Positions 28,565 to 32,261 of a DNA stretch of 64,000 nucleotides are shown piece by piece. The notes beneath the pieces were generated by a model. The model searched no databases, had not been told where the DNA came from, and was given only the letters and a program-made list of their open reading frames with translations. Both the position numbers and the translations under genes were made by a program. The DNA lies in contig NC_012438.1 of the NCBI RefSeq assembly GCF_000021545.1, positions 866,003 to 930,002 of the forward strand, written 5' to 3'. The stretch comes from Sulfurihydrogenibium azorense Az-Fu1 (GTDB taxonomy: Bacteria; Aquificota; Aquificia; Aquificales; Hydrogenothermaceae). Every line of letters starts with the position of its first letter. Position 1 is the first letter of the stretch.

Positions 28565-29527
28565 ATGGAGATTGTTTTGTCAATAGAAAAACAACCTCAC
28601 GACTGGTTTTTTAAAGTAATATTTAGTCAAAGTAAAAATGTAGAGTCTTTTTTAGAGATCTTTTTACCAAAGATTTATAAAAGTATAGTTCCAAACTCTT
28701 TAAAACTTTCTGATACAGAGAAACTTTCAAAGAAGTATAAAAAGCTATTTCTTGATATAGCATTCGATTGTAAACTTAAGGATAAAGATGGAAATGAGAC
28801 AGATGGACAAATCTATATAGTTTTTGAACACAAATCTTATCCAGACAAACATACCCCTTCTCAAATATCTTTTTACAAGTCAGTTATGATGGAAGAAGAT
28901 GAAAGATTATCAAGACCTTACAGACCTGTTATTCCTATCGTTTTCTACCACGGAGAAAAACCTTGGAATATACCTACAAAAATTCCTCAACTCCAGAATA
29001 TAGATGACTACTTAGAAGAATACACCCACTCTCTTAGCTATATTCTTTTTGATACTACAAAATTGGAAGACATATTCTTGATAGAAAACTTATACTTAAA
29101 CGCCTGCTTACTTTCTGCCATTTATACGATGAAAAATATATTTAAAGATTTAGAACATCTAAAACCTATATTGGAAAAACTTGTCCTTGAAGATGTTAGA
29201 GAGTGTCTTTATATTATTATTGACTACACGGTAATAGTAAAAAAAGATTTAGAAACAATAGAGAAAGTTTTAGAAGAAATAGGAGGTGAAGAGAAAATGA
29301 TGACTCTAACAGAAAAATGGAAGATGGAAGGGCTACAGGAAGGGTTAAAAAGATTAATACAAGAATCTCAAGAAGCTGTAATAGAGATACTGGAAATAAG
29401 GTTTGGATCTGTTTCTGATGAGTTGAAATCAAAAATTAAAGCTATAGAAGATTTAGAAAAGTTGAAAAATTTAAGAAGAGAAGCTGTTAAAACTCAGTCT
29501 ATAGAAGATTTTTCTAAAATACTTTAG
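28565..29527 (+). CDS. Rpn-type nuclease (transposase_31 / PD-(D/E)XK family)
   Basis: 320 aa. The start QPHDWFFKVIFSQSKNVESFLEIFLP is the typical Rpn opening. The nuclease core shows LFLDIAFDCKL followed by IYIVFEHKSYPD (Asp, Glu-x-Lys). VIPIVFYHGEKPW is another family block. RpnA-like enzymes cleave DNA and promote RecA-independent recombination; they are usually accessory and scattered as paralogues. It sits between divergent miaA and dapF. A leaderless start is possible: TTGTGT-17-TAAGAT ends 5 nt before ATG. Confidence 0.85.
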   Translation: MEIVLSIEKQPHDWFFKVIFSQSKNVESFLEIFLPKIYKSIVPNSLKLSDTEKLSKKYKKLFLDIAFDCKLKDKDGNETDGQIYIVFEHKSYPDKHTPSQISFYKSVMMEEDERLSRPYRPVIPIVFYHGEKPWNIPTKIPQLQNIDDYLEEYTHSLSYILFDTTKLEDIFLIENLYLNACLLSAIYTMKNIFKDLEHLKPILEKLVLEDVRECLYIIIDYTVIVKKDLETIEKVLEEIGGEEKMMTLTEKWKMEGLQEGLKRLIQESQEAVIEILEIRFGSVSDELKSKIKAIEDLEKLKNLRREAVKTQSIEDFSKIL

Positions 29528-29539
29528 GTGAAGAGAATT

Positions 29540-30406
29540 ATGGATAAAAATTTTTTTGTAAAATCTCATGGACTTGGTAATGATTACATAGTGATAGATT
29601 CAGAAAATATAACTTTTGAGATTACACAGGACTTTATAAAGAAAATATGTGATGTACACTACGGTATAGGTTCTGATGGAATTCTGGTAAAGTATCCGTC
29701 AAGTGTTGCAGACTTTAAACTAAGAATATTTAATCCCGATGGCTCTGAAGCTGAAAAAAGTGGAAACGGTCTTAGAATATTCTGTAAATTTTTATACGAT
29801 TATGGATATACTAATAAAGAAGAGTTCACAGTAGAAACGAAAGGAGGGTTAGTAAGAGCTAAAATTGAAGAGAAAAATAAGTTTGGAAAGGCAAAAGTTA
29901 TAACTGTTGATATGGGTAAAGCCATCTTTGAAGCAAGTAAAATTCCTGTTAAAACAGATAAAAAAGAGTTTTTAGGAGAAAAGGTTAAAGTTGGTGATAA
30001 AGAGTACGAAGTAAACTGTGTGTCTGTAGGAAATCCCCACTGTGTAATAATAAAAAAGGAGTTAAACGAAGAAGAGATAAAAACATACGGTTCTTTGATA
30101 GAAAATCATCCACTTTTTCCAAATCGTATAAATGTTCAATTTGTAAAACCAATATCAGAAGACCAAGCAGAGATATTAATATGGGAAAGAGGAGCCGGGT
30201 TTACTTATGCCTCTGGAAGCTCTTCCTGTGCCGTTGCATCTGTTTTAGTAAAGAAAGGTCTTGCAAAAAATGATATTACCATTAAAATGATAGGTGGAGA
30301 GCTGAAAATAACTGTAGATAAAGATTGGAATATACGAATGACAGGGGAAGTTCAGGAAATTTGCAGAGGAATAATCAGTGAAGAATTTTTAGAGAGTATA
30401 AAGTAG
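29540..30406 (+). CDS. dapF: DapF-family epimerase with both catalytic Cys replaced by Ser
   Basis: 288 aa from ATG 29540; GTG 29528 lies in the likely ribosome site. The fold signatures of diaminopimelate epimerase are clear (VKSHGLGNDYIVID, IFNPDGSEAE, SVGNPHCVI, WERGAG). However the two acid/base cysteines are absent: the usual CGNG is SGNG (Ser74) and the usual ACGxGxC is ASGSSSC (Ser225). Cys82 and Cys230 are nearby but not at the catalytic positions. DAP epimerase makes meso-DAP for lysine and peptidoglycan. The substitution could mean a Ser-Ser epimerase variant, or another racemase or dehydratase activity of this fold. Confidence 0.8.
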   Translation: MDKNFFVKSHGLGNDYIVIDSENITFEITQDFIKKICDVHYGIGSDGILVKYPSSVADFKLRIFNPDGSEAEKSGNGLRIFCKFLYDYGYTNKEEFTVETKGGLVRAKIEEKNKFGKAKVITVDMGKAIFEASKIPVKTDKKEFLGEKVKVGDKEYEVNCVSVGNPHCVIIKKELNEEEIKTYGSLIENHPLFPNRINVQFVKPISEDQAEILIWERGAGFTYASGSSSCAVASVLVKKGLAKNDITIKMIGGELKITVDKDWNIRMTGEVQEICRGIISEEFLESIK

Positions 30407-30948
30407 TGGAAAAAAGAGTATTTGTAGGAAGTTTTGTAGACTGGAAAAAGCTAAAGAAAAGTTATACAGACATAAAAAAAGATTTAAGTGGAGTAGTGTC
30501 TGGCAGCTGGGTTAAGCCCGAAAACTTTCATATAACGTATAAGTTTTTAGGTAATACTAAGGTAGAAAAGATAAACGATATATTACATATACTTAACAAA
30601 GATTTTAACAAAGAGTTGGAAGTAAATATAACTTTAAAAGGCCTTGGGGTTTTCCCTAACCTTGATGATCCAAAGGTGTTATTTTTTAAAGTTTTAGAAA
30701 ATGAGATTTTAAAAGAGATATTCTTAAACTTAGAAGAAAAGCTTTACAGTATAGGCTACAAAAAAGAGATAAAGCCGTTTATTCCACATATTACAATCCT
30801 TAGAATAAAAGAAGTGAAACAGGCTCAGTTTGTAGAAAAGTTAAAAAAATATGAAGAAAAGCTATTTTTAAAGCAAGAAACAATAACTGTAAATCTAATA
30901 GAAAGTATATTAAACCCAACAGGAGCTGTTTATAAAAAACTAAATTAA
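30406..30948 (+). CDS. thpR: RNA 2',3'-cyclic phosphodiesterase (2'-5' RNA ligase family)
   Basis: 180 aa from GTG 30406, sharing a base with the dapF stop. The two HxT motifs are HITYKFLG and HITILRI. FVGSFVDW opens the protein. The 2H phosphoesterase family hydrolyses 2',3'-cyclic phosphates and can reversibly ligate tRNA halves in vitro. It ends the operon; a stem-loop with a T run follows. Confidence 0.9.
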   Translation: MEKRVFVGSFVDWKKLKKSYTDIKKDLSGVVSGSWVKPENFHITYKFLGNTKVEKINDILHILNKDFNKELEVNITLKGLGVFPNLDDPKVLFFKVLENEILKEIFLNLEEKLYSIGYKKEIKPFIPHITILRIKEVKQAQFVEKLKKYEEKLFLKQETITVNLIESILNPTGAVYKKLN

Positions 30949-31159: not shown

Positions 31160-32261
31160 TGTATAAGTTTCAATACACAGTGAACACCTACCCCTTTAAA
31201 ATAATTTCAACAAAAACAGGAGGTAGGTTATATGAAAGGTATTATAGGAACCCCCTATGTATATGACAACACTCTTTCCTAAAAAACTATCAAACAAGAT
31301 TAAAGACATTCCTTTAACAAAAGAAGCCAAAAAAAGACTAAAATGGATACAGCACTACCAAGATACAAAAAATATATCCAAAACCTGCAGATACTTCGGA
31401 ATATCAAGAACTACCTTCTATAAATGGTTTGAAAGATACAAAAAAGACGGACTTGAAGGACTTCTTGATAGACCTAAAACACCAAAAAACACAAGAAAAC
31501 CAACTATAAGAAATCAGTACAGAGAACAAATAATAAAAGTCAGGAAACAAAACCCAACTTGGAGCAAAGAAAAAATATCGGCATATCTACAAGAAGAAAA
31601 AAACATAAAAGTATCACCATCTACAGTGTATAAAGTATTAAAAGAAGAAGGATTAATAGAGAGAACAAAATCAATTAAAATACAAAACAAAAGAAAAAAG
31701 AGTATAAAGAAGAAAAGGACAAAAAGAGGCTTGCAAGCACAAGCCCCAGGGGATGTAGTACAAATAGACGTAAAACACCTGAACATCGCAGGTGCAACAT
31801 ATTACCAATTCACAGCTATAGATAAGTATAGCAGATTTTGTTTTGCACGGGTATATGAAAGTAAAAATTCAAAGAAAACAAAAGAATTTTATATTGAGTT
31901 AAATGAGTATTTTGAATTTGAGATAAAGAGGGTACAAACAGATAACGGGAGTGAGTTTTTAGGGGAGTTTAACAAGTATTTAACGGATATAGGAGTGGAG
32001 CATTACTTTAGCTATCCAAGGAGTCCAAAGACTAATGGTGTTGTAGAAAGATTGATAAGGACAATAGAAGAGGAGTTATGGTTGATAGAGGGATTAGATT
32101 ACACATTAGAGGAGATGAATAAGAAGTTAAGGAAGTATGTAAGGAAGTACAATTTTATAAGGCCACATCATTCTTTAGGATACAAAAGACCAGCAGACAT
32201 TGTTTATGGAGTATGATAAAATTTTTAGGTGAAGGTGTTCACGATGTATAGAACTCATACA
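31160..32261 (+). mobile_element. IS481-like insertion sequence, copy 1 (1102 bp)
   Basis: The ends were set by comparison with copy 2: identity begins at TGTATAAG (31160) and stops at ATACA (32261). Imperfect terminal inverted repeats of 28-29 bp end in GTGAACACC and have TGT...ACA tips. The flanking 5-mers differ (TCCGG on the left, CCAAA on the right), so there is no target duplication. It carries one DDE transposase. Confidence 0.9.
31257..32216 (+). CDS. IS481-like DDE transposase, copy 1 (5' end frameshifted)
   Basis: 319 aa from ATG 31257. Compared with copy 2, the native start (ATG 31232 behind GGAGG) is put out of frame by a fifth C at 31251-31255. The remaining frame lacks only the first eight residues but has no ribosome site. 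HTH region SKTCRYFGISRTTFYKWFERYK, then an integrase core with Asp in VVQIDVKHL, Asp in QTDNGSEFL and Glu in NGVVERL. The shared residues are identical to copy 2. Activity may be reduced rather than abolished. Confidence 0.85.
   Translation: MYMTTLFPKKLSNKIKDIPLTKEAKKRLKWIQHYQDTKNISKTCRYFGISRTTFYKWFERYKKDGLEGLLDRPKTPKNTRKPTIRNQYREQIIKVRKQNPTWSKEKISAYLQEEKNIKVSPSTVYKVLKEEGLIERTKSIKIQNKRKKSIKKKRTKRGLQAQAPGDVVQIDVKHLNIAGATYYQFTAIDKYSRFCFARVYESKNSKKTKEFYIELNEYFEFEIKRVQTDNGSEFLGEFNKYLTDIGVEHYFSYPRSPKTNGVVERLIRTIEEELWLIEGLDYTLEEMNKKLRKYVRKYNFIRPHHSLGYKRPADIVYGV

Follow-up and report, generated by a model that had tools for sequence, protein, structure and literature searches.

A clade of diaminopimelate epimerase homologues with serine at both catalytic cysteine positions in Hydrogenothermaceae and other bacteria

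The cofactor-independent amino-acid racemases are explained by a pair consisting of a thiolate and a thiol. In diaminopimelate (DAP) epimerase, DapF (TIGR00652; EC 5.1.1.7; E. coli, H. influenzae, Anabaena), helix N-termini and the amides of two glycines, one being the Gly220 equivalent, stabilise the thiolates, and the distal carboxylate and amine of DAP are bound by residues equivalent to N64, N157, N190, E208 and R209 (PMC12039745). The nearest precedent for a DapF with two serines is a natural Ser-Cys 4-hydroxyproline 2-epimerase in cluster 9 of the proline racemase superfamily, which also contains a dehydratase of trans-3-hydroxyproline whose pair is Ser/Thr (PMC4113996; 4k7g). HisR (histidine racemase) and PddB (Dab racemase) have the DapF fold, and their relatives are often annotated as dapF. 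Sulfhydryl reagents inhibit PddB, and replacement of either of its cysteines leaves less than 0.1% of the activity (PMC8225329); the same paper reports a likewise less than 0.1% activity for Cys-to-Ser Mt-DapF. Chemically, serine is thus a poor replacement unless the site makes up for it.

The protein described here is encoded in a 64,000-nucleotide stretch of the genome of Sulfurihydrogenibium azorense Az-Fu1 (NC_012438.1, positions 866,003 to 930,002; hereafter the window). Like the 4-hydroxyproline 2-epimerase, it is PLP-independent, belongs to the same structural superfamily and has serine in place of a catalytic cysteine, but that enzyme has only one such serine, acts on another substrate and is 14% identical to it (4lb0). 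Neither its catalytic pair nor that of the trans-3-hydroxyproline dehydratase includes a thiol, but the latter enzyme dehydrates, has a different substrate and is also 14% identical. HisR and PddB keep Cys-Cys and have changed substrate, whereas in the window protein it is the Cys pair that differs and the DAP pocket that is preserved. The literature searched yielded no description of a Ser-Ser DapF; it included few subscription papers and so gives weak evidence of absence.

The dapF gene of the window and the fold of its product

The translation of the window dapF gene (Table 1) contains EAEKSGNGLR and ERGAGFTYASGSSSCA (= WERGAGFTYASGSSSCA). Its ATG start is supported by the alignment of the family; the mechanical open reading frame begins four residues earlier (GTG 29528, 292 aa), a possible alternative start. 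Translation, DNA codons and alignment with E. coli K-12 DapF, which served as the reference for residue equivalence, all bear out the first-pass annotation, which had read serine at both catalytic cysteine sites, with codons AGT and TCT. The Pfam DAP_epimerase profile matches the protein twice. The PROSITE signature of DapF, quoted in PMC8225329 as N-x-(DN)-(GS)-(SENGFT)-x(4)-C-(GI)-N-(GA)-x-R, fails on the window protein (NPDGSEAEKSGNGLR), in which only the Cys position misfits.

Table 1. The Ser-Ser dapF gene, codons of its active-site residues and adjacent genes (positions within the window)
Feature	Position	Strand	Remarks
Rpn/YhgA-like recombination-promoting nuclease gene	28565..29527	+	directly upstream of dapF; stop adjoins the alternative GTG start
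dapF, Ser-Ser type	29540..30406	+	288 aa from ATG 29540; TIGR00652 equivalog 259.3 bits (cut-off 114.65); PF01678
Lys73 codon	29756..29758	+	E. coli position 72; Lys in 54/55 Ser-Ser proteins and 0/33 Cys-Cys DapFs (Met, Gln or Asn)
Ser74 codon AGT	29759..29761	+	counterpart of E. coli catalytic Cys73; predicted helix 75-87 follows immediately
His167 codon	30038..30040	+	E. coli His159; invariant in both clades
Glu216-Arg217 codons	30185..30190	+	E. coli Glu208-Arg209, distal DAP recognition (roles: PMC12039745); invariant in both clades
Ser225 codon TCT	30212..30214	+	counterpart of E. coli catalytic Cys217; predicted helix 226-238 follows immediately
Ser228 codon	30221..30223	+	E. coli position 220; Ser in 55/55 of the clade, Gly in 33/33 Cys-Cys DapFs
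thpR (RNA 2',3'-cyclic phosphodiesterase)	30406..30948	+	TIGR02258 113.8 bits; start overlaps dapF stop by one base
IS481-family transposase gene	31257..32216	+	between thpR and smc

An AlphaFold2 model built on a 43-row alignment (mean pLDDT 96, pTM 0.90) has the DapF fold, with a helix predicted to start immediately after each of the two serines. The top PDB match of the model is the cyanobacterial DAP epimerase 9mro (E 1e-33, TM 0.88), and the DapF structures in the PDB, including C73S and C217S mutants, match it at TM 0.75-0.89. By sequence, the PDB entry that comes closest is the DapF of B. anthracis (2otn), with Cys at both sites; no solved structure of a Ser-Ser DapF was found in the PDB, all DapF matches scoring far below what would be expected of a member of the clade.

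Other assignments within the fold were rejected: PhzF isomerase profiles fall below their cut-offs (PF02567, 21.5 bits versus 27; TIGR00654, 23.3 versus 76.2); the bifunctional DapF/glutamate racemase of chlamydial type scores 91.9 bits (NF038284, cut-off 350), and the genome has a separate Cys-Cys MurI; and Pfam gives no proline racemase match, structures of that family being matched by fold alone at 12-17% identity. The protein is thus a DapF by descent, fold, profile and pathway, though not by catalytic pair or PROSITE signature, and we refer to its group as the Ser-Ser DapF clade. Annotation pipelines currently label this type as plain DapF.

Distribution, descent and selection of the serine pair

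Both serines are present in 55/55 distinct homologues, from Hydrogenothermaceae, Spirochaetota, Bacillota and Bacteroidota, and both cysteines in 33/33 comparison DapFs, which places the Ser-Ser pair beyond chance. Every homologue examined at 61-92% identity to the window protein has SGNG and ASG(S/T)S; this set comprises all of the Hydrogenothermaceae, four Bacteroidales/Bacteroidetes metagenome-assembled genomes (MAGs), Rhodocytophaga aerolata, Clostridium intestinale, one Clostridiales MAG and one Spirochaetes MAG. Further carriers in Bacillota and Spirochaetota, 43-48% identical to the window protein, all have KSGNG and ASG(S/T)S. Surveys of genomes, in which the query genomes were counted, found carriers in 2 of 395 Bacteroidota (E 1e-80), 7 of 398 Bacillota (E 1e-70) and 11 of 296 Spirochaetota (E 1e-70), prevalences that at these thresholds are lower bounds. 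Among phages and plasmids there was no match to the Ser-Ser type above 60% identity, and the best plasmid match (Monoglobus) is a Cys-Cys protein.

In a tree of 90 sequences, all 55 Ser-Ser proteins lie on one side of a single branch (support 100/99) that is present in all bootstrap trees. One subclade (A) consists of Spirochaetota and Bacillota; the other (B) consists of Hydrogenothermaceae, among which the proteins of Bacteroidota, Clostridium and GWB1_36_13 are nested, and for these the simplest reading of the tree would be transfer out of a Hydrogenothermaceae-like lineage. The DapFs of the Aquificaceae and of a third family in the order are Cys-Cys and fall in a distant clade, so the serine pair is not a trait of the Aquificota as a whole. 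The earlier suggestion of a Ser-Ser type spread throughout a thermophilic lineage therefore holds for the Hydrogenothermaceae, but neither for the Aquificota at large nor as a feature of thermophiles only, since mesophiles, among them C. intestinale, Rhodocytophaga and Bacteroidales, are carriers.

Across the clade the codon class does not vary at either serine, being AGY at the first and TCN at the second; because the cysteine codon TGY is one step from both, toggling would have mixed the two classes, and no trace of reversion through cysteine is seen. Comparison with four Sulfurihydrogenibium orthologues gives dN/dS of 0.05-0.09 (NG86; rough values, dS being high for three of the four), and the window dapF is under strong purifying selection. 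Conservation in 55/55 homologues from independent genomes and low dN/dS rule out sequencing error or decay, and these observations, with the single clade and invariant codon classes, strongly support the proposal of the first-pass annotation that the two sites had co-varied.

Glutamate racemase has the same Cys-Cys chemistry as DapF. MurI keeps both cysteines (ACNT...GCTHY) in the window genome and in the other Hydrogenothermaceae that could be read, five loci being unread by the simple motif pattern. A general avoidance of catalytic cysteine in these genomes can be dismissed wherever the motif scan gave a reading, and the change is specific to DapF.

Two unusual proteins were noted outside this pattern. 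A genome that holds a Ser-Ser DapF (G877) also encodes a further DapF, whose pair is Cys-Ser (L134, 1495-2349; VCGNA ... ASGTGAAA) and which falls outside the Ser-Ser clade. In another genome (G066, contig 53, 16523-17344; L072), a DapF-like domain has Phe at the first Cys site (MFGNA ... ACGTG) and sits within an open frame of 1354 aa, downstream of a CarB-like ATP-grasp region; a fusion is possible.

Surroundings of the active site and a proposed mechanism

The Ser-Ser proteins share with DapF the two-domain fold, the DAP contacts, the pathway genes and the location of the presumed acid/base residues at helix N-termini. When the 55 Ser-Ser proteins were compared with the 33 Cys-Cys proteins (E. 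coli numbering), the differences beyond the catalytic pair itself (Ser versus Cys at 73 and 217) were M72K, C79I (Ile in 53/55 versus Cys in 33/33), T219S (Ser versus mostly Thr) and G220S; position 192, Gln in 55/55 of the clade, is also among those fixed differently between the groups. The equivalents of N11, N64, G74, N75, N157, H159, N190, E208, R209 and G218 are conserved in 55/55. With the DAP residues untouched and the changes gathered around the two former thiols, the substrate site has been kept while the surroundings of the two acid/base positions have been rebuilt.

The window protein is probably the functional DAP epimerase of the organism, with Ser74 and Ser225 as its catalytic pair, catalysis and the acid/base role of the serines being argued by analogy with DapF. 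It would convert LL-DAP to meso-DAP, feeding MurE and LysA. DAP would be held by the unchanged contact residues while one serine side chain removes the alpha-proton on one face and its partner gives a proton back on the opposite face. The serine oxygens may be made basic by the N-termini of the two predicted helices, and their basicity may be raised by Lys73 beside Ser74 and by Ser228 beside Ser225, perhaps also by His167 and Glu216; of these, Lys73 and Ser228, both specific to the clade, suggest themselves first as compensation for a weak serine base. On balance, we lean towards the broader view of a widespread, naturally thiol-free amino-acid epimerase, in which both acid/base residues are serines activated by the rebuilt anion environment (Lys73, Ser228) and from which whole lineages draw all of their meso-DAP.

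The principal competing account that keeps this function, possible but rather doubtful, is a DAP epimerase in which a base elsewhere in the site moves the proton: Lys73, on the side of Ser74, would be the likeliest, perhaps together with Cys168, His167 or Glu216, the serines serving only to bind or position. No basic residue lies within 4 A of either catalytic sulfur in Anabaena DapF (PMC12039745), so the nearly invariant lysine would be new to the site, and Cys at E. coli position 160 (window Cys168) is present in 55/55 Ser-Ser proteins but only 5/33 Cys-Cys proteins. However, E. coli DapF itself has Cys160, with no known catalytic role; the one exception to Lys73 is Ile in a protein (L046) whose genome, for its part, bears two other DapF-type genes; and serines acting as mere spacers would not need conservation of both in 55/55. 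A second cysteine of the window protein, Cys160 in its own numbering, is found in 52/55 of the clade and, like Cys168, is rare in Cys-Cys DapFs.

If the serine pair is catalytic, a clade that seems to rely on this enzyme for its cell wall and lysine challenges the rule that the cofactor-free reaction needs thiols, and natural Ser-Ser and Cys-Cys enzymes could be compared so that removal of a proton of pKa ~29 by a weak base becomes directly testable. Neither thiol-directed DapF inhibitors nor oxidation should act on the Ser-Ser enzyme. In the DapF of C. glutamicum, disulfide formation between the two catalytic cysteines inactivates the enzyme (PMC5296763), and one may speculate that the serine pair confers resistance to oxidation or to the sulfur and metal chemistry of hot springs, although anaerobic mesophiles also carry the gene.

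Lysine and cell-wall genes in the carriers

The window genome is complete (1.64 Mb, a single contig) and has one PF01678/TIGR00652 gene. The first-pass annotation had proposed a search for a second, Cys-Cys dapF and held that such a gene, along with random variation at the two sites in orthologues, would count against its reading; profile search of this genome found no second DapF, and the orthologues do not vary at either site. In the Hydrogenothermaceae searched, every complete genome gives a single DapF match; the double matches in two genomes are split genes, and the four genomes of the family with no match are 69-78% complete. The window genome also encodes LysA (533.8 bits, cut-off 297.9) and the succinyl-DAP transaminase DapC (662 bits, cut-off 453.6). 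Its MurE carries a DNPR motif, which is typical of DAP-adding enzymes, and is therefore read as DAP-type. A bypass through DAP dehydrogenase was ruled out: TIGR01921 has no match in the window genome at E 0.001, and other carriers have only short matches below the cut-off.

The neighbours of dapF in Hydrogenothermaceae (thpR, smc) are not lysine genes, whereas lysA, dapL or both adjoin it in most of the Bacteroidota carriers and in a single Bacillota genome. In three Bacteroidales loci (L041, L043, L047), lysA is directly upstream of the Ser-Ser dapF and dapL is divergent, and a further locus (L048) was judged by eye to have the same arrangement; the order is lysA-dapF-dapL in a Bacillota locus (L164) and dapF-dapL in another Bacteroidota locus (L168), with the neighbours at L041, L043, L047, L164 and L168 passing NCBIfam equivalog cut-offs. 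Two different, unrelated types of dapL occur among these neighbours. No other DapF is present in any of the six Bacteroidota carriers or in the spirochaete MAG G061. About half of the subclade A genomes and two Clostridia carriers also have a Cys-Cys DapF, so another role is possible at least in subclade A; in G775, which has both types, the lysA/dapL operon contains the Ser-Ser gene.

This context bears on two further readings. It is improbable that the protein is not a DAP epimerase but a dehydratase, isomerase or racemase of another amino acid, comparable to HisR, PddB or the hydroxyproline dehydratase. The DapF annotation has misled before, in the case of HisR (PMC11602996), the proline racemase superfamily has a Ser-Thr member that works as a dehydratase (PMC4113996), and the Bacillota and Spirochaetota carriers with an additional Cys-Cys DapF would fit such a role; but the five residues for distal DAP recognition are unchanged throughout the clade, lysA and dapL recur as neighbours in two phyla, and the Ser-Ser protein is the sole DapF in a setting that has LysA and a DAP-type MurE but lacks DAP dehydrogenase. 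Gene context and intact DAP contacts thus argue against the other substrate or dehydratase role that the first-pass annotation had offered as an alternative. Highly improbable is a catalytically dead DapF with a structural or regulatory role, meso-DAP coming from an unrecognised enzyme. The near abolition of activity by single Cys-to-Ser changes in known enzymes of this kind (PMC8225329) would fit it, and non-catalytic roles of DapF exist, E. coli DapF binding RppH (6d13, 6vck; PMC4227774), but the invariant substrate pocket, the low dN/dS and the transfer of the gene, as the sole DapF, to lysine operons in other phyla speak against it.

Minor observations concern individual loci. The Bacteroidota genome G147 (L168; L215), in which the Ser-Ser dapF lies by dapL, has only a fragmentary MurE-like match (E 3e-10), and is either incomplete or poor in cell-wall genes. 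The dapF-thpR pair of the window recurs in two other loci (L035 and L036), and no gene separates thpR from smc at the first of these, which is related to the window locus, so that the IS481-family transposase gene between them in the window is likely an insertion.
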